This document shows positions 2,752-17,083 of a stretch of DNA of 39,992 nt, piece by piece (within the stretch, counting starts at the first letter, position 1; every line of letters begins with the position of its first letter). Location of the stretch: assembly GCA_016933615.1 (NCBI GenBank), contig JAFGAO010000045.1:1-39992 (forward strand), read 5' to 3'. Both the position numbers and the translations under genes were made by a program. The notes under the pieces are model-generated. The model was not told the DNA's origin and made no database searches. It saw only the letters and a program-made list of their open reading frames with translations. Origin of the DNA: Acidobacteriota bacterium (lineage in GTDB: Bacteria > Acidobacteriota > UBA6911).

Positions 2752-2797
2752 CTGTTTTCTTCTTGATTTTCACCTTTTCTTCACCTATTTTGTACTC

Positions 2798-3604
2798 ATG
2801 ATCACCGTAGGGACAAGCGGATTCCAGTACCGCGATTGGGCGTCGGTGTTTTATCCCGGAAGCCTCGATCCGAAACTGCGGCTGCGCTATTACAGCCGCC
2901 GGTTCGGATGCTGCGAGCTGGGAGCCACGGTCTACCGGATACCGGAAGCCATTATGATTCAGGAACTTGTCGAGGAAACCGGCGGGGACTTCCAGTTCGT
3001 TTTCCGGGCACCTTTCCGCCTGGCGGAAGAGCATCCGGACAACCCGGAACTGGCCCGGAGGTTTGCGGCGGCGCTGTGGCCGGTGAAGGCGGCCGGGCGG
3101 CTGGCGGGCGCGCTCCTGCAGTTTCCGCCCGGGTTCGGATTCATGCGCGACAACTTCGACCGGTTGTGCCGGGTCCGGGATCTCATCGAGGGCATTGCGC
3201 TGATCGCGGAATTCGGCTGCCCCGACTGGCTGTCTCCCCGGGCGGCGAAGCACATGGCGGCCGAACGGATTGCGCTCGCGTGCGTGGACGGCGGAGAGCG
3301 CCTGGCAGAGAAGACTTTTTTCTGCGCGACCGCCGAACCGGCATACGTCCGCTTCCAGGGGAGAAACAGCTCCCGGTGGGTGAAGGGGGACGGGTCGGCC
3401 CGGCACGATTACCTGTACAGCCGGGTGGAGCTTGCGGCCGCCGTTGCGGCAATCCGCCGCCTGGAGCAGCAGTGCGAACGGGTGCTCGTGTTTTTCGGCA
3501 ACCACTGGCGCGGGCAGGCCGTCGTCAACGCCCGCATGCTCCTCGAAGAACTCTCCGGTGCTTTGAACGGGGAACGGGAAACCGGCAACGGGAAACGGAA
3601 GTAA
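2798..3604 (+). CDS. DUF72 (YecE-like) protein, first gene of DNA-polymerase cassette
   Basis: 268 residues. The start MITVGTSGFQYRDW and FYPGSL match the DUF72 TIM-barrel family, as do the later HDYLYS and FFGNHWRGQAVVNARML segments. The function of DUF72 is not established. Several positions I remember as conserved are changed: the family's EIN-x-TFYR reads ELGATVYR, EFRHPSW reads EFGCPDW, and RLHGR reads RFQGR, so the Asn, Arg and two His residues of the presumed pocket are missing. The last codons run almost into the next gene (2 nt gap), which strongly suggests co-translation with the Y-family polymerase-like protein and DnaE2. In known mutasome operons this position is held by ImuA or a SulA-like partner, so a non-enzymatic partner role is a reasonable guess, but only a guess. 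Confidence 0.85.
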   Translation: MITVGTSGFQYRDWASVFYPGSLDPKLRLRYYSRRFGCCELGATVYRIPEAIMIQELVEETGGDFQFVFRAPFRLAEEHPDNPELARRFAAALWPVKAAGRLAGALLQFPPGFGFMRDNFDRLCRVRDLIEGIALIAEFGCPDWLSPRAAKHMAAERIALACVDGGERLAEKTFFCATAEPAYVRFQGRNSSRWVKGDGSARHDYLYSRVELAAAVAAIRRLEQQCERVLVFFGNHWRGQAVVNARMLLEELSGALNGERETGNGKRK

Positions 3605-3606
3605 AA

Positions 3607-4764
3607 ATGGAACGAGAGATCATTTATATGACGGTAGCCAATTTCCCCGTGGCGGTGGAGCGGGTGGTGCATCCCGCACTGCGCGGGCGGCCGGTTGTCG
3701 TGGCGCACCGGGATGCGGCCCGCTCCGTTGTGGCGTCAGTGTCCGCCGAGGCCCGGACGGAAGGCATTTGCCCGGGAATGGCGCTTTCCAGGGCGATGCG
3801 CTTTTGCCGCGGCATGATCGTTCTGCCCCCGGACGAGATGCTGTACGCCCGGGCCTCCCGCGCGATCTTCCGGGTTCTGGCCGGCTTCTCGCCCCTGCTC
3901 GAGCCTTCGGGGCACGGCCACGCCTACCTGGATATTACCGGAACCGGCCGGCTGTTCGGGCCTCCGCGGGATACGGCCTGGAGAGCGCAGAAGGAGATCC
4001 GGCGTCAGCTCCGCCTGGACGCTTCGCTCGGAGTGGCCTCCAACAAGCTGGTCAGCCGGATCGCATCCGAGGTTATCCAGCCCGACGGGCTGCGGGATGT
4101 TCCCCACGGGGACGAACCTTTTTTCCTGTCCCCGCTGCCGGTGCGCCTGCTTCCGGGCGTCGGACCCAAAACGGAGGAACAGCTCGCGGATCTGAATCTG
4201 CGCATCATTCGCGACGTCGCGGCGATGAGGATGGAACACCTCGCGCTGGCGTTCGGGCGCTTCGGGTTTGCGCTCCACCAGCACGCGCGCGGAATCGACC
4301 GGACGCCCGTGTATCCGATGCTCGCCGTTCCCTCCGTTGAAGAGGCGGAAGCGCTGCCGGAAGACAGCAACGATGCGGATCTTCTGAAACGCGTTCTGCG
4401 CGCAATCTGCGAACGCGCCGCCCTGCGCTTGCGCGAGCAGAGGCAGCGCGCCGGGCGGATGGAGCTGTGCGTGCAGTATGCGGACCACCGGGAGGGAGTC
4501 CGGAAGGTGAAGATTGCGCCCCCGCTGCAGTCGTCGGCGATTCTTTACACGCGCGCCCTGGCCTTGATGGACCGGGTGCTGCAGCGGCGCACGCGCGTGC
4601 GCCGCGTTTGCCTGCGGCTGGAGGACTTTTCGGCGGCATCGGTCCAGATGGAGCTTTTTGCCGGTCCGGCGCCCGAGCGCTGCACAAGGCTGGAGCTGGC
4701 TCTCGACACCCTGCGTCACCGCTACGGCGAAAAAGCGGTTGTTCATGTATGTTTGTCCATCTGA
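3607..4764 (+). CDS. imuB: ImuB-like, catalytically inactive Y-family DNA polymerase
   Basis: 385 residues with Y-family architecture: palm and fingers (1-170), helix-hairpin-helix thumb (about 175-235, with LLPGVGPKTEEQLADL), and little finger (about 245-345). All three catalytic carboxylates are gone. The usual IDMDAF strand reads MTVANF (T9, A11), and SIDEAYLD reads GHGHAYLD (G104, H105). The fold-defining LRGRPVVV and SNKLVSRIASE are kept. QMELF at 347-351 fits the beta-clamp-binding consensus. Loss of the active site with a retained clamp motif is the hallmark of ImuB, the scaffold that brings DnaE2 (ImuC) to the clamp during mutagenic lesion bypass. It is shorter than mycobacterial ImuB and has no long C-terminal extension. 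The ATG at 3607 is chosen over a far longer upstream frame that shadows the DUF72 gene. It overlaps dnaE2 by 16 nt. Confidence 0.85.
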   Translation: MEREIIYMTVANFPVAVERVVHPALRGRPVVVAHRDAARSVVASVSAEARTEGICPGMALSRAMRFCRGMIVLPPDEMLYARASRAIFRVLAGFSPLLEPSGHGHAYLDITGTGRLFGPPRDTAWRAQKEIRRQLRLDASLGVASNKLVSRIASEVIQPDGLRDVPHGDEPFFLSPLPVRLLPGVGPKTEEQLADLNLRIIRDVAAMRMEHLALAFGRFGFALHQHARGIDRTPVYPMLAVPSVEEAEALPEDSNDADLLKRVLRAICERAALRLREQRQRAGRMELCVQYADHREGVRKVKIAPPLQSSAILYTRALALMDRVLQRRTRVRRVCLRLEDFSAASVQMELFAGPAPERCTRLELALDTLRHRYGEKAVVHVCLSI

Positions 4765-7727
4765 ATGTGCACTCCAACTACTCGTTCTGCCGCGGAGCCT
4801 CCAAAATAGAAGACCTGGTCGACGCGGCCCTGGCCCGCGGCATGCCGGCGATGGCCCTGACCGATATCAACGGCGTTTACGGGCTGGTCTGGTTTCTGCA
4901 GTACGCGCGGGAGCGCGGCCTGCGGCCGATAGTGGGGTCGGAATTGAAAACGGAGACGGAGCGCGCCGTTCTGCTGGCGCGCAACCGGCAGGGGTACGAG
5001 ACTCTCTGCCGCATCATCTCCCGCCGCCTGTCCGAGGAGGGTTTCCGCCTGAGCGACGCCCTGATGCAGGACCGCGAGCACCTGGTTGTCATGAGCGACC
5101 GGGTGCCGTTGCTGCGGGCTCTCGGCCGCGGCAACGGGACGTCCGGGCTGTATGTCGAGTTGAACGATCCGGGGGCGGAGCCCCCTCTGATGGATTTCTC
5201 GCGACGCAGCGGGGTCCCGCCCGTGGCTACCAACGACGTGTACTTTGCCGACCCTTGCGGGTTTTCGCTGCACCGGCTGCTGCGCGCGATCGACCTGAAC
5301 ACGTCTCTGTCCCGGGTCCCGCCGGAGGAACTGGCGGGCGAGGACCGCTGGCTGAAAACCGCACGGGATATGGCGCGCCGGTATCCCCATGTTCCCGGGG
5401 CCCTGGAAAATACGGAGCGCATCGCGGCCGAATGCTCGGCGGATCTGGATATCGGCCGTCTCGTGTTTCCCTCTTACGATCCCCCGGATGGTGCGGACGC
5501 CTTCGAATACCTGCGGGAGGAGTGCTACCGGGGCGCCGAATGGCGCTACGGCGAGCTTTCCGATTCCGTGCTCAAACGGCTGGGGCACGAGCTCGGGATC
5601 ATCAAAGACAAAGGCTTCGCCACCTATTTCCTGGTCGTGCGGGATATCGTCCGGCAGTCCGGCCGCACCTGCGGCCGCGGGTCGGCGGCCGCGAGCCTGG
5701 TTTCGTACTGCCTCGGGATCACGCACGTGGAGCCGATCACGCACAATCTTTTCTTCGAGCGCTTTCTCAACGAGGGGCGAAGCGATCCTCCCGACATCGA
5801 CATCGATTTTCCGTGGGACGAACGCGATCGCGTGTTCGACTACGTTTTCCAGAAATACGGTTCTTGCCGGGCCGCCATGATTTCCAATCACGTGGGATTC
5901 GGCGCGAGGGCCGCCGTGCGGGAAGTGGCCAAGGTCTACGGCCTTCCGGAGCGGGAAATCAACGCAGTGACCGGGCGCATGGGATACTTCTGGCGGGTAG
6001 GCCAACTGGAGGATTCCATACGGAACCACCCGGTGTACAAGGACATGGACCTGAAGCCTCCCTGGCCCGAGATTGTGCGCCTGGCCGTGAAGCTCGAAGG
6101 CTACCCCCGGCATCTGTCCGTGCACTGCGGCGGCATTGTCGTGGTCCCCGATCGGATCGACCGGTATGTCCCGGTGGAGCCCGCCCCGAAAGGGGTTCCC
6201 ATCGTCCAGTGGGAGAAGGACCAGGCGGAGGATGCCGGCCTGATCAAGATCGATCTTCTCGGGAACCGGTCCCTGGCCGTGATCCGGGATGCCTTGGCGG
6301 CGATCAGGGAAAATTGCGGGACGGACATCGATTATGAGCGGTGGGATCCGACGCGGGATGCGAAAACCCGGGATTTCATGCGTCGGGGGGACACCATGGG
6401 CGTGTTCTACGTGGAGTCCCCCTCGATGCGGCAGCTGCAGAAGAAGTGCGGCACGGGCGATTTCGATCACCTGGTGATCCACAGCTCGATCATCCGCCCC
6501 GCGGCCAACCGCTACATCCGCGAGTACGTGCGGCGCCTGCGGGGCGGTGCCTACGACCCGCTGCATCCCATTCTCGACGAGGTGCTGCGCGAAACCTACG
6601 GCATCATGGTCTACCAGGAGGACGTCTCTAAAATCGCCATGGCCATGTCAGGATTCAGCGCGGCGGATGCCGACCTTCTGCGCAAGATCATCTCGAAAAA
6701 GCGCGCGGCCCGGAAGCTGGAGGATTACAGGGAGCGGTTCCATGCCGGCGCCGCGGCGCGGGGCGTGTCGCGCGACGTGGCGGAAAAAGTCTGGGACATG
6801 ATCATGAGTTTTTCGGGGTACTCGTTCTGCAAGCCGCATTCCGCTTCCTACGCCCTGGTCTCCTACAAGTCCTGCTGGCTGCGGGCGCATTACCCGGCCG
6901 AGTTCATGGCGGCGGTGCTGACCAACCGGGGCGGATACTATTCGGCCTTCGCCTATGTTTCCGAGGCGCGCCGGATGGGGCTGCAAGTTTTGATGCCGGA
7001 TGTGAATTCGAGCCGAAGGGAGTATCGGGGCAGGGGGAAAAAGATCCGGGTGGGGTTGATGCAGCTGAAGGGGCTGCGGGAAAAGGCGCTGCGGGCGGTC
7101 GTTGAGGAACGCCGGAACGGCCCGTACGCATCGTTCGAGGATTTCCTCCGCCGCGTGCCGCTCGACCCGGCGGATGCGAAGATACTGGTCAAGACGGGTG
7201 CGTGCGACAGTATTTCCGGCGGCGCCACGCGGCCGGAAATGATCTGGACGGCCCTGGCCCTGCATGAACGGCGCGCCGCGCGGCGTCCGGCCGTCCGCAC
7301 ACTGTTTCAGGATATGGATCCCGTCGTCCCGCCGCGGGTGCCACGCTACAGCGCCCGGACGGTCCTGGAGCATGAGATCGAGACCCTGGATTTTCTGATC
7401 AGCCGGCACCCGCTGTCGCTGTATGCCGAACCGCTTTCAAGGCTGAAATACGTGAGAGGGGCGGACCTTTATAAATATGTCGGCCGCCGGGTGACGGCCG
7501 TGGGCTGGTGGGTGACCGGGAAAGCTGTCACAACCCGGCAGGAGGAGCCGATGGAGTTCATCAGCTTCGAGGATACGACCGCGCTGTACGAAACCACTTT
7601 CTTCCCGGAGGCCTACGCGCGTTTCTGCCACATGATGGGCCGTTGCCGCCCCTACGTGCTCACCGGCCTGGTCGAGGAGGACTTCGGGGCCGTCAGCCTG
7701 ACCGTCGATTCCGTCCGTTTCTTATGA
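4749..7727 (+). CDS. dnaE2: Error-prone DNA polymerase III alpha subunit, DnaE2/ImuC type
   Basis: 992 residues. The order is N-terminal PHP domain (HLNVHSNYSFCRGAS, 3-18), C-family polymerase core, tandem helix-hairpin-helix (about 800-830), and a terminal OB fold (VTAVGWWVTGK onward). It is shorter than replicative DnaE (about 1,160) and ends at the OB fold, as DnaE2 proteins do. The polymerase is intact: PPDIDIDF gives D351 and D353, and KIDLLG gives D502. The PHP TDH motif reads TDI, so the proofreading-type metal site is probably inactive. I see no good clamp motif, which fits a polymerase that borrows the clamp contact of ImuB. The ATG at 4749 is set inside the imuB 3' end, giving translational coupling. 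Its expected role is lesion-bypass synthesis after DNA damage. I found no LexA-like dyad upstream of the cassette. Confidence 0.88.
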   Translation: MFVHLNVHSNYSFCRGASKIEDLVDAALARGMPAMALTDINGVYGLVWFLQYARERGLRPIVGSELKTETERAVLLARNRQGYETLCRIISRRLSEEGFRLSDALMQDREHLVVMSDRVPLLRALGRGNGTSGLYVELNDPGAEPPLMDFSRRSGVPPVATNDVYFADPCGFSLHRLLRAIDLNTSLSRVPPEELAGEDRWLKTARDMARRYPHVPGALENTERIAAECSADLDIGRLVFPSYDPPDGADAFEYLREECYRGAEWRYGELSDSVLKRLGHELGIIKDKGFATYFLVVRDIVRQSGRTCGRGSAAASLVSYCLGITHVEPITHNLFFERFLNEGRSDPPDIDIDFPWDERDRVFDYVFQKYGSCRAAMISNHVGFGARAAVREVAKVYGLPEREINAVTGRMGYFWRVGQLEDSIRNHPVYKDMDLKPPWPEIVRLAVKLEGYPRHLSVHCGGIVVVPDRIDRYVPVEPAPKGVPIVQWEKDQAEDAGLIKIDLLGNRSLAVIRDALAAIRENCGTDIDYERWDPTRDAKTRDFMRRGDTMGVFYVESPSMRQLQKKCGTGDFDHLVIHSSIIRPAANRYIREYVRRLRGGAYDPLHPILDEVLRETYGIMVYQEDVSKIAMAMSGFSAADADLLRKIISKKRAARKLEDYRERFHAGAAARGVSRDVAEKVWDMIMSFSGYSFCKPHSASYALVSYKSCWLRAHYPAEFMAAVLTNRGGYYSAFAYVSEARRMGLQVLMPDVNSSRREYRGRGKKIRVGLMQLKGLREKALRAVVEERRNGPYASFEDFLRRVPLDPADAKILVKTGACDSISGGATRPEMIWTALALHERRAARRPAVRTLFQDMDPVVPPRVPRYSARTVLEHEIETLDFLISRHPLSLYAEPLSRLKYVRGADLYKYVGRRVTAVGWWVTGKAVTTRQEEPMEFISFEDTTALYETTFFPEAYARFCHMMGRCRPYVLTGLVEEDFGAVSLTVDSVRFL

Positions 7728-7732
7728 AAATA

Positions 7733-7761
7733 TTGACACTGTTCATATTTGTACATAGTAT
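7733..7761 (+). promoter_or_regulatory. Sigma70-type promoter of the perR-like gene
   Basis: TTGACA at 7733-7738, a 17-nt spacer, and TAGTAT at 7756-7761. It begins five bases after the dnaE2 stop. The predicted transcription start (about 7768) lies next to the ATG at 7770, so the mRNA would be leaderless or nearly so. The spacer holds an imperfect dyad, TGTTC...GTACA, that could be an autoregulatory operator. Confidence 0.65.
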
Positions 7762-7769
7762 CAATCTCG

Positions 7770-8168
7770 ATGCTGGAAATAGTGAAAATACTTCGAGATC
7801 ATGGAGTGTCTCCCACCCCGCAGCGGATTGCCGTTGCAAGTTCGGTTCTGTATACAAAGGAGCATCCATCGGCGGACGATATCTGGAGTATCGTCAAGGA
7901 ATCCTGGCCCACGCTTTCCCGGACCACCGTATACAACACCCTGAACCTTCTGGTTGAGAGGGGAGTATTGAAGCCGAAGGTTATCCGGGAAGGCAGAACC
8001 GTTTACGATCCCTGCGTCGAGAGGCATCATCATTTCATCGACGAAAAAACGGGTGAAATCCAAGACATCCCTTGGGATTCCATAAAAGTGGCGGGAGTCG
8101 ACGCTCTCGAGGATTTCGAAGTGCTGGAATATCACGTGGTCATTCGAGGCCGCATGAAGAAGGAGTAA
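7770..8168 (+). CDS. Fur-family regulator, PerR-like
   Basis: 132 residues from ATG 7770. The N-terminal winged helix has the family's SPTPQRIAV and [19 protein letters not shown] recognition helix. The hinge and metal site contains ERHHHFID. The C-terminal half lacks both CxxC pairs that hold structural zinc in Bacillus PerR and many Fur proteins; only one Cys (in DPCVERHHH) remains. PerR proteins repress peroxide-defence genes and are inactivated when H2O2 oxidises a metal-binding His. The neighbour 64 nt downstream is a peroxiredoxin, which supports a PerR-type assignment over iron-sensing Fur. A TTG at 7749 would add seven residues but sits inside the promoter's -10 region, so the ATG is preferred. 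No ribosome binding site precedes it, consistent with a leaderless transcript. Confidence 0.82.
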
Positions 8169-14954: not shown

Positions 14955-15014
14955 CAAATGAAAAAAGCACGGGGATATTGTCGATTCCGGGCCTGTTTCG
15001 CTATTCTTTACGGC

Positions 15015-15986
15015 ATGGACTTCCAAGAGATATCGATTGAAGAGATTGACTCCGAAAATGAGACGTTCAGGATCAGCGAGGAGATCCGCTCCGCCCCTAT
15101 GGAAATGTCGATACGCAGGATCGGGCAGCTAAATCCCCTTCTGCTGCTGGGAGGGAAGCGCCCCTACCGGGTCGTGTGCGGATTCCGGCGCTTGGACGCC
15201 ATGCGGCGGCTGGGATTGTCCCGCGTCTCCGCGAGGATTGTCGAAGAAGAGAATCGGGATTTGTGCGACGTGTTCTGCCTGGCGCTCAGGGACAACATTT
15301 CTCACAGGCAACTGGATGCGCTGGAAAAAGCAAGAGCGCTCCACAAGCTCAGGAATGAATTCGGCGTCCCGGATGAGGCGATCCTGAGGGACTGGCAGCC
15401 CCTGATGGGGCTGGCGCCGCACGGACAGGTCCTGCAATCCCATTTAATGCTGCATGCGTCGGATCAGGGATTGAGGAATCATTTCAAAGCGGGGCGGCTG
15501 ACGCTGTCCAGCCTGGAGTGCATTGCGGCAATGCCGCCGGCCTCTCAAAAGTTCATTGCCGCCTTTTTTGAGGGAGTCCGTCTGAGCGCCGGCCTTCAGA
15601 AAAAATTCTTCGTCGTGCTCCAGGATCTGGCGGCGATAAGCGCATCGGGGCCTGAGAATCCCCTTGAAGATCCCGAAGCGCTTGCGATTGCCAACGACGC
15701 TGCGGCGTCTCCTTTTCAGCGGGGAGAAAAAATTTTCGCATTTCTTTATTGCAAGCGGTATCCGGCATTGACCCGGGCCGAGGAACGTTTCCGGGAGCGG
15801 AGCAAGTCCCTGGGATTGCCGGGCTCGATCCGGATCACGCCGGCGCCCTATTTTGAAACAAACGACCTGAAAGTGGAATTCAGCGCCTCCGATGCCGGAC
15901 GCTTCCGCGAAATGGCGCGCCGGCTGTTTGAAGCGTCGCAGACGCCGGAACTGGACAGCCTGTTTGGAGTCATTCAAAAATTATGA
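15015..15986 (+). CDS. ParB/Srx-fold domain protein paired with an SPL-like radical SAM gene
   Basis: 323 residues from ATG 15015; a longer frame from 14958 adds 19 residues that read like leader DNA. The N-terminal part carries ParB-N features: MSIRRIGQLNPLLLL, then YRVVCGFRRLDAMRRLG (the GERRxxAA-type loop), then LRDNISHRQLDALEKARAL. The middle (about 110-200) could be a helix-turn-helix region like that of ParB. The C-terminal third is not recognised. Chromosomal ParB binds parS and acts with ParA; no parA is present. Instead the stop overlaps the next gene's start (ATGA, 4 nt), so this is probably a dedicated DNA-binding or nucleotide-binding partner of the radical SAM protein. The name ParB describes the fold and should not be read as a segregation role. 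Confidence 0.78.
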   Translation: MDFQEISIEEIDSENETFRISEEIRSAPMEMSIRRIGQLNPLLLLGGKRPYRVVCGFRRLDAMRRLGLSRVSARIVEEENRDLCDVFCLALRDNISHRQLDALEKARALHKLRNEFGVPDEAILRDWQPLMGLAPHGQVLQSHLMLHASDQGLRNHFKAGRLTLSSLECIAAMPPASQKFIAAFFEGVRLSAGLQKKFFVVLQDLAAISASGPENPLEDPEALAIANDAAASPFQRGEKIFAFLYCKRYPALTRAEERFRERSKSLGLPGSIRITPAPYFETNDLKVEFSASDAGRFREMARRLFEASQTPELDSLFGVIQKL

Positions 15987-17083
15987 TTCCTTACGCGCCC
16001 GAGCGCATACTGGTCCAGGAGGAGTCCTGGCAGGACAGCGTCACCCTGGAGATCCTGGAGCGCCTGCCGGGGGTCGAGGTCCGGACCGTCAAGAGTCGTG
16101 AAGTGCGTTTCCCGGAACCGTCCCAAGGATCCCCGGCGCCTTGGGAAGATAAAAATACCCTGTTTCTGCTGCGCCATCCTGGCAGCTTCCTGAAGAGATG
16201 CCAGGGATCGGGCGCGGATACCTGCTGCAATTATTACGTTTTGAGCTGCACCTGGAATTGCCACCTGGACTGCAGCTACTGCGTCCTTCAGTCCTACCTG
16301 GGCGGCCGGGCCCTGGTGGTAGGCACTAATTTTCAGGATTTGATGCGTGAGGTCCGGGAAAAGCTGGGGAGCTCTCCGCATCGTATCTTCCGTATCGGAA
16401 CCGGAGAGCTGGCGGATTCGCTCGCCCTGGACCCCGCAACCGGTTTTTCGCGCCGGCTGGTTCCGTTTTTCGCCCGACTTTCAAACGGTTTCCTTGAGCT
16501 CAAGACAAAATCCGACTGCGTCGCCAATCTCGAAGGCCTGGATCATGGCGGCCATACCGTTGTTTCCTGGTCTGTAAATTCGAAGCGCATCTGCAGGACC
16601 GAGGAAGAAAAAGCCCCGACGCTGGAAGAGAGGCTGGCGGCGGCGCTTCAGTGCCAGAAATGGGGATACCGGCTGGGATTTCACTTTGATCCCCTAATTT
16701 ACTATGACGGGTGGGAAGACGATTACAGGGAGGCTGTCGGGGAAATCTTCCGCAGCATCAATCCCGAAAGGGTGGCCTGGTTGAGCCTCGGGGCCCTCCG
16801 CTTTCCGCCTCATTTGATCGGTCATGTTAAAAAACGGTTTCCCGAATCGAAAATTCCCTATGGAGAGTTTGTTCCGGGCCACCACGGGAAAATGCGCTAT
16901 TTCCGGCCGATCCGCGAGGCAATGTACAGAAAGATGATTTCCTGGATCCGGGAGGCGGCTCCGGGATTGACGGTCTATCTGTGCATGGAGAGCTTTGCGG
17001 TATGGGAAGGCAGTTTCAGGATTCAGTACCCCGGCCCTTCCTTCACGCCCGATCGATTGGATGCGGCAATCATTAAAGGATAA
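15983..17083 (+). CDS. Spore photoproduct lyase-like radical SAM protein
   Basis: 366 residues. The radical SAM cluster motif is CHLDCSYC, giving C93, C97 and C100 (CX3CX2C), close to the positions I recall for Bacillus SplB. Other SPL-family traits: LKTKSD near 175, WSVNS in the following strand, and the C-terminal VPGHHGKMRYF and YLCMESFAVWE. SPL repairs the UV-made thymine dimer of spores by a 5'-deoxyadenosyl radical. The Cys that donates hydrogen in SplB (C141) aligns to a Glu here (RIGTGELADS, E142), so this is probably not a true spore photoproduct lyase, and no sporulation gene is seen. Two extra Cys precede the cluster (DTCCNYYVLSC). The start overlaps the ParB-like gene by 4 nt. Its likely role is an unknown radical reaction, possibly on DNA. 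Oxygen-sensitive clusters fit an anaerobe. Confidence 0.85.
   Translation: MIPYAPERILVQEESWQDSVTLEILERLPGVEVRTVKSREVRFPEPSQGSPAPWEDKNTLFLLRHPGSFLKRCQGSGADTCCNYYVLSCTWNCHLDCSYCVLQSYLGGRALVVGTNFQDLMREVREKLGSSPHRIFRIGTGELADSLALDPATGFSRRLVPFFARLSNGFLELKTKSDCVANLEGLDHGGHTVVSWSVNSKRICRTEEEKAPTLEERLAAALQCQKWGYRLGFHFDPLIYYDGWEDDYREAVGEIFRSINPERVAWLSLGALRFPPHLIGHVKKRFPESKIPYGEFVPGHHGKMRYFRPIREAMYRKMISWIREAAPGLTVYLCMESFAVWEGSFRIQYPGPSFTPDRLDAAIIKG

Follow-up and report, generated by a model that had tools for sequence, protein, structure and literature searches.

A DUF72 protein as a candidate optional subunit of an ImuA-less, LexA-type mutasome operon

A DUF72 gene in a mutasome-like operon

Here we analyzed a 39,992-nucleotide stretch of an Acidobacteriota genome (contig JAFGAO010000045.1 of assembly GCA_016933615.1), referred to below as the window, in which a gene for a DUF72 protein opens an operon that continues with genes for a catalytically dead Y-family polymerase and a DnaE-type polymerase. 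Very probably, this operon encodes a mutasome of a known kind that is under LexA control and independent of ImuA. DUF72 is a family without a settled function, and recurrence of this trio in distant bacteria points to it as an unrecognized helper in copying past damaged DNA. Our preferred reading, to which we give a probability of roughly 0.6, is a DNA-damage-induced, ImuA-independent mutasome with the dead Y protein as organizer and DUF72 as an optional extra subunit. The genome of the window (3.62 Mb, 82% complete) was compared within a set of 60 genomes that includes it (labeled G; examined loci are labeled L) and with 14 control genomes, E. coli among them.

An initial annotation of the window had proposed that DUF72 is coupled to the polymerase genes, and this coupling reaches far beyond close relatives, with the same gene order found in another phylum and on a plasmid. 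Within the window's family, DUF72 lies next upstream of Y in seven of the nine genomes with a cassette Y (the window's own, G001, G004, G006, G009, G012, and G014), with spacing that ranges from an overlap to about 360 bases; G006 was judged from 94 bases at a contig start. G019, from another family of the same class, has lexA-DUF72-Y, and a related DnaE gene on another contig. A contig scan with the Y alignment returned 19 loci, several of them the same contigs, with DUF72 beside Y in seven (L093, L094, L095, L097, L098, L104, and L106). The order in L104 and L106, both from Desulfobacterota, is lexA-DUF72-Y-DnaE. We then have 28 dead Y proteins among the best 30 loci from a search of 297 Desulfobacterota genomes, each examined together with about 1.5 kb of flanking sequence, and six of the 28 are accompanied by DUF72, each time between lexA and Y; one locus of this search, L194, is identical to L106. 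Longer stretches bear out the full lexA-DUF72-Y-DnaE order in another four genomes (L236-L239). The L235 contig breaks off after lexA-DUF72-dead Y, an arrangement also present in L045, and L240 is lexA-Y-DnaE without DUF72. Finally, the mobilizable plasmid Do28_1 of Desulfosarcina ovata (NZ_AP021877.1; L244 6531-12306) carries lexA-DUF72-dead Y-DnaE, and the cassette can therefore probably travel.

On Do28_1, a conjugative relaxase gene lies within a few kb of the cassette, whose Y protein is annotated as a hypothetical protein. The closest relative of the window's cassette, L093 (Y 81% and DnaE 88% identical), is on a contig labeled Phycisphaerae, perhaps through a binning error. Two candidates were rejected as cassettes. 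DUF72 and DnaE in L053 and L054 (G039 and G054) are about 3-4 kb apart with other genes between them, which in L054 run on the other strand; a weak lexA match (42-45 bits) lies beside them. In the Nonomuraea locus L245, the Y protein begins like an active one, and neither DUF72 nor DnaE was matched across 17 kb. A phage search gave one weak, unannotated match.

Promoter and LexA-type operator

The arrangement ahead of the DUF72 gene, of the type TTGATTTTCACCTTTTCTTCACCTATTTT, precedes nine of the ten window-family cassettes with upstream DNA, G007 included, and the same arrangement is found before one lexA in each of the nine window-family genomes with lexA promoter sequence. Variants of the operator also precede lexA in the lexA-Y-DnaE cassettes L041-L043, L061, L101, and L108. 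Across the whole 3.62 Mb genome, the pattern TTCACCNNWNNNNCACCNA has two matches, at the DUF72 promoter and at the lexA promoter, and the reversed control has none. The lexA-promoter match is at the end of contig C1, and the sequence resumes on C18 in the way seen in G008, whose lexA promoter is intact. A scan of 1.12 Mb of loci, many of them overlapping, gave 50 operator matches, five of which are at unrelated places.

Within the window, positions 2763-2791 hold the only perfect operator site; with two mismatches allowed there are two matches against 1.0 expected, which is no rarer than chance. The cassette promoter was not among the predictions of a generic promoter scan, and the operator pattern had no match in the recA loci L132-L145. 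The site qualifies as a LexA operator solely by its likeness to lexA promoters, a likeness that makes LexA control of the cassette very probable (Table 1).

Table 1 Features of the cassette, in window positions.
Feature	Positions	Strand	Description
DUF72 protein gene	2798..3604	+	268 aa, TIM barrel; profile match and structure comparison
Catalytically dead Y-family polymerase gene	3607..4764	+	385 aa, without ImuB C-terminal domain
DnaE-type polymerase gene	4749..7727	+	992 aa, intact catalytic Asp motif, no C-terminal domain judging by length
Promoter/operator TTGATTTTCACCTTTTCTTCACCTATTTT	2763..2791	+	Sigma-70-like -35 and -10 with LexA-type repeat TTCACC-N7-CACC between
Putative sliding-clamp-binding motif QMELF in Y protein	4645..4659	+	Clamp-type consensus
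RecA-N-terminus-like motif LELALDTLRHRYG in Y protein	4690..4728	+	Regular expression; motif described in PMC6511836

The dead Y-family protein and the DnaE-type polymerase

The three genes are separated exactly as first annotated, by a 2-nt gap (3605-3606) and a 16-nt overlap (4749-4764), which leave no room for a separate ImuB-C gene among them. Pfam scores for the three proteins are 134 bits for DUF72 (cut-off 25.3), 124 for IMS, and 248 for DNA_pol3_alpha. The Y protein, claimed at the outset to be dead, indeed has Thr in place of the first catalytic Asp, Ala in place of the second, and Gly-His in place of the Asp-Glu pair. Its AlphaFold model is confident (mean pLDDT 87, pTM 0.67). The protein carries the putative clamp-binding motif QMELF and ends 11 residues past the RecA-N-terminus-like motif ALDTLRHRYG; no ImuB C-terminal domain follows this motif. 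A motif homologous to the RecA N-terminus is described for inactive Y polymerases by Timinskas & Venclovas 2019 (PMC6511836), where it is taken as a route to use RecA instead of ImuA.

We compared 62 Y rows, 49 of them dead (48 cassette-type and the ImuB-type L048) and 13 active (nine free DinBs, L044, L061, L207, and L218). In the tree of these rows, all 15 DUF72-linked Y proteins are dead. A clamp motif ending in LF is present in 39 of the 48 dead cassette-type rows, including 9/9 of the window's family.

The DnaE-type polymerase keeps the active-site motif PDIDIDF. At 992 aa, compared to 1155 for the DnaE1 of the same genome, it appears too short for a C-terminal replisome-binding domain. 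The initial annotation called it an intact DnaE2, of which the intact active site stands and the name fits loosely: NCBIfam favors DnaE (724 bits) over error-prone DnaE2 (645 bits), with both scores under cut-off, and the protein belongs to a separate group in the tree. In this 44-row tree, six DnaE1s, ten DnaE2s of ImuA/ImuB-type cassettes, and 25 DnaEs of window-type cassettes form three groups with support of at least 99. Among the 25, L044 adjoins an active Y; nine of the ten ImuA/ImuB-cassette DnaE2s are from genomes with an ImuA-like match, and G017 is without one. DnaE groups are also treated in PMC3919608.

Beyond the cassette, a Fur/PerR-like regulator gene (7749-8168, + strand) lies directly 3' of the DnaE gene. 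Further on, at 14958-17083 (+ strand), a weak ParB/Noc-like gene overlaps a spore-photoproduct-lyase-like radical SAM gene by 4 nt. The lyase-like match is above the Pfam cut-off and below the NCBIfam cut-off, and the pair is odd for a presumed Acidobacteriota genome. Scanning the window for Rfam families (at the gathering threshold) and for tRNAs found nothing.

DUF72 fold, pocket, and selection

DUF72 structures have been solved since 2004, and the family is present in 9 of the 14 control genomes, E. coli included. The window's protein belongs to PF01904 by both profile match and TIM-barrel fold. Its AlphaFold model (pLDDT 80, pTM 0.82) matches TM1631 (1vpq) at a TM-score of 0.82, with 31% identity, and E. 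coli endonuclease IV more weakly (TM 0.52, E 1e-4); sugar isomerases are also matched, again more weakly. TM1631 has been modeled on DNA with Asn44, Lys72, Gln114, Arg145, and Arg191 at the phosphate (Konc et al., PMC3828134). A later paper names the lysine Lys73 as catalytic base (PMC4939058), which by residue count is Lys72.

In the window's DUF72, four pocket residues are substituted: N to G at 42, K to R at 70, H to E at 77, and R to G at 140. The alignment of the histidine, the equivalent of TM1631 His79, is less sure. All four residues are replaced in 6/6 DUF72s of the window's family, where the Gln is kept in five of six, and all four are kept in 8/8 other cassette DUF72s (Desulfobacterota and G019). 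Free DUF72s, those outside cassettes, keep K in 61/61, R in 61/61, H in 60/61, and N in 46/61. The window-family protein is under purifying selection despite the lost pocket residues, as its dN/dS is low, at 0.10-0.19 in four pairs, three of which cover just 106-145 codons. Similar values were obtained for Y, at 0.16-0.25 in three pairs, and for DnaE, at 0.13-0.28 in two. In a 75-row tree, a branch with an SH-aLRT of 87, which is not decisive, sets all 14 cassette DUF72s apart, and the cassette group adjoins free DUF72s of GPAGW type.

These data bear on whether DUF72 could instead be a DNA-repair enzyme under LexA control that takes no physical part in the mutasome and simply shares its operon. 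We consider this unlikely, though it is the strongest of the alternatives. It would agree with a DUF72 that is optional and lost in places, with the abundance of free DUF72s (60 copies of at least 226 aa in 60 relatives), and with the K, H, and R kept in every Desulfobacterota and G019 cassette copy. However, the window-family protein is without those residues and yet selected, a combination poorly explained by an independent enzyme. The termini of the cassette proteins also differ from those of their free relatives, as follows.

Clamp-type motifs at the ends of free DUF72s

The free set comprises the 60 copies from the 60 relatives, together with E. coli YecE (L184), 61 in total; the 60 are what is left of 75 DUF72 places after removal of seven cassette copies and eight fragments, among them two pieces in G059, one with an in-frame stop. 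The loci used in this motif work were L053, L054, L073-L092, L150-L182, and L255-L275. Counting the first 25 and last 35 residues as terminal, 15/61 free DUF72s have a terminal Q..[LM]F, and none has it inside. Shuffled sequences (2000 rounds) gave 0.7 terminal motifs on average and six at most. YecE, for example, has QQSSLF at its C-terminal end. By its consensus, the Q..LF tail is a putative sliding-clamp-binding motif.

The terminal motif is concentrated in GPAGW-type free DUF72s (13/25, compared to 2/36 of the remainder). Its position is N-terminal in eight copies, all from the window's family, and C-terminal in the other seven, none of them from that family; this suggests that a short binding tail was acquired more than once. 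A second set, chosen by similarity to a DUF72 profile (A5) and read with an N-terminal limit of 30 rather than 25 residues, has the terminal motif in 17/21 and none inside, with 0.3 in shuffles (maximum 3); L268 and L274 in this set repeat proteins already counted. Related rows inflate the counts in both cases. Cassette DUF72s have no terminal Q..[LM]F (0/14) and an internal one in 1/14.

The absence of a tail from cassette DUF72s is expected if Y supplies the clamp contact. Compared to the related free copies, it argues against a repair enzyme that merely shares the operon, though 34/36 other free DUF72s lack the motif as well. More tentatively, and at somewhat less than even odds, DUF72 may be a widespread clamp-tethered damage-tolerance family, with many free copies reaching the clamp through a tail of their own and the cassette form being a dedicated tail-less mutasome subunit that relies on Y for the clamp. 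With the pocket lost in the window's family, two pseudoenzymes would then surround one polymerase.

The ImuA question

Neither a RecA-like ImuA nor a SulA-like ImuA' was found in the 82% complete genome of the window, in agreement with the initial annotation. The ImuA model NF033429 has a single match there, which is RecA by sequence, and the SulA model has none; in the 60 genomes the SulA model has no match over cut-off. The ImuA model's own cut-off is passed in none of the 60 genomes or 14 controls. Below it, by our reading, 23/60 genomes have a non-RecA ImuA-like match, some of them weak, and 22 of these are on a contig with Y or DnaE matches. A partial match in G024 was left uncounted as ambiguous, and the second RecA-like match of G057 is RecA by sequence. 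The dead-Y/DnaE cassette is present in 14/60 genomes (in G019 it is split over two contigs, and G008 was included from its DUF72 and DnaE fragments alone), with no overlap with the 23 (hypergeometric P 0.00035, ignoring kinship). In the window's family, ImuA-type cassettes occur in G003 and G011, both of which lack a dead-Y cassette, and G002, G005, and G013 show neither.

Mutual exclusion of DUF72 and ImuA had been named as a point to check, and DUF72 had been described as standing in the place of ImuA. The first does not hold, as the exclusion runs between cassette classes and free DUF72s coexist with ImuA; G003, for example, has three DUF72s and a weak ImuA match beside Y and DnaE matches. 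The second, in the sense that DUF72 functionally replaces ImuA, is improbable. The lack of ImuA in this genome and the exclusion across the 60 genomes would suit it, but the exclusion belongs to the whole ImuA-less dead-Y/DnaE class, whose examined members are mostly without DUF72 as well. Further, the cassette of G007 cleanly lost DUF72 and keeps the rest, and Y has a RecA-like motif of its own.

A model for the cassette

In the mechanism that we favor, LexA would repress the operon through the repeat at 2763-2791, and RecA filaments would trigger LexA cleavage, upon which the operon would be made together with LexA. The dead Y protein would act as organizer, holding the sliding clamp through QMELF and RecA through the RecA-like motif, and would bring DnaE, the sole active enzyme, to the blocked primer end. 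DUF72, whose TIM barrel is of the endonuclease IV/UV-endonuclease kind, would join as an optional extra subunit. The Desulfobacterota proteins, with the pocket kept, may process or sense lesions. Since the pocket is lost and purifying selection kept, the window-family protein likely works noncatalytically by binding DNA or a partner. What the sequences show directly is the recurring gene order, the operator common to this cassette and lexA, the dead Y, the loss of DUF72 pocket residues, and purifying selection; we infer that LexA binds the site, that the proteins contact one another, and that the operon serves mutagenesis. A putative physical membership of DUF72 in the mutasome is the most economical reading.

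Several observations weigh against this model. DUF72 is missing from 22/28 Desulfobacterota dead-Y loci within the flank examined, from the Acidobacteria lexA-Y-DnaE cassettes L100, L101, L102, L105, and L108, and from the Desulfarculales-type loci L107 and L109-L111. G007 keeps operator, Y, and DnaE with DUF72 deleted, the DUF72 start running into the Y start (MIL-DREIIY) in a clean in-frame deletion (L036 5408-5460). In G010, neither DUF72 nor operator is present in the 290 bases upstream of Y on the contig. Absence or deletion in so many sister cassettes indicates that DUF72 is not essential. Among 396 Acidobacteriota genomes, DUF72s above 370 bits with profile A5 are in only the seven already known; the neighbors of other matches were not examined for Y, and as A5 contains the free DUF72s L053 and L054, weaker matches are not cassette members by score alone. 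On the Y tree, two DUF72-bearing groups stand apart and the DUF72 label needs five changes. The RecA-like pattern is found in 42/48 dead cassette-type rows but also in 7/13 active Y rows, and is therefore no mark of the dead cassette class. A nuclease role in the window's family is disfavored by the loss of the putative catalytic pocket there. Lastly, an ImuA could be missed, as the genome is 82% complete.

A chance pairing of neighbors in one lineage with a common promoter would fit the restriction of this DUF72 form, among the searched Acidobacteriota, to one family and G019, but is hardly credible given that a second phylum and a plasmid have the same gene order, that cassette DUF72s group together, and that purifying selection acts on DUF72.

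Comparison with known mutasomes

An ImuA-less mutasome of inactive Y and DnaE2 has already been published; the membership of DUF72 appears to be new. A literature search largely without subscription papers did not find DUF72 as a Y/DnaE2 operon member or as a clamp binder, and the one co-mention of DUF72 and DnaE2 concerns DUF721 by our reading. Among the papers listed for YecE, many deal with Shiga-toxin phages. The operon, the operator common with lexA, the order in two phyla, and the terminal motifs together give DUF72 a testable place in translesion synthesis. The cassette also displays a mutasome architecture without ImuA that may use a second pseudoenzyme.

Like the ImuA-ImuB-DnaE2 mutasome, the window's cassette combines LexA-type control, a dead Y organizer, and a second DnaE. 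Unlike it, the cassette is without ImuA and the ImuB C-terminal domain, and its DnaE is of a separate lineage. Around PolB2 mutasome operons (iRadA-PPB2-PolB2, PMC11791011), some enrichment of DUF72 genes is reported, and of lexA in bacteria; the same paper likens the DUF72 fold to UV-damage endonuclease. The polymerase family there is unrelated, the operons include an inactivated RadA homolog, and DUF72 is a neighbor that is not reported as a fixed operon member. TM1631 (1VPQ) and EF0366 (1VPY, 1ZTV) share fold and family with the window's DUF72, whereas the window-family proteins are without equivalents of TM1631 Asn44, Lys72, Arg145, and, less surely, His79.

The closest known systems are the ImuA-less inactive-Y/DnaE2 variants, namely the scDinB2-like Streptomyces group and the Kyrpidia type (PMC6511836). 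Both they and the window's cassette have an inactive Y with a RecA-like motif and a DnaE2 without ImuA, often with lexA. The window matches the description of these variants in its inactive Y, its DnaE without the C-terminal domain (by length), its lack of ImuA, and the RecA-like pattern, which is nonspecific. What sets the window's cassette apart is DUF72 in the operon and no standalone ImuB-C.

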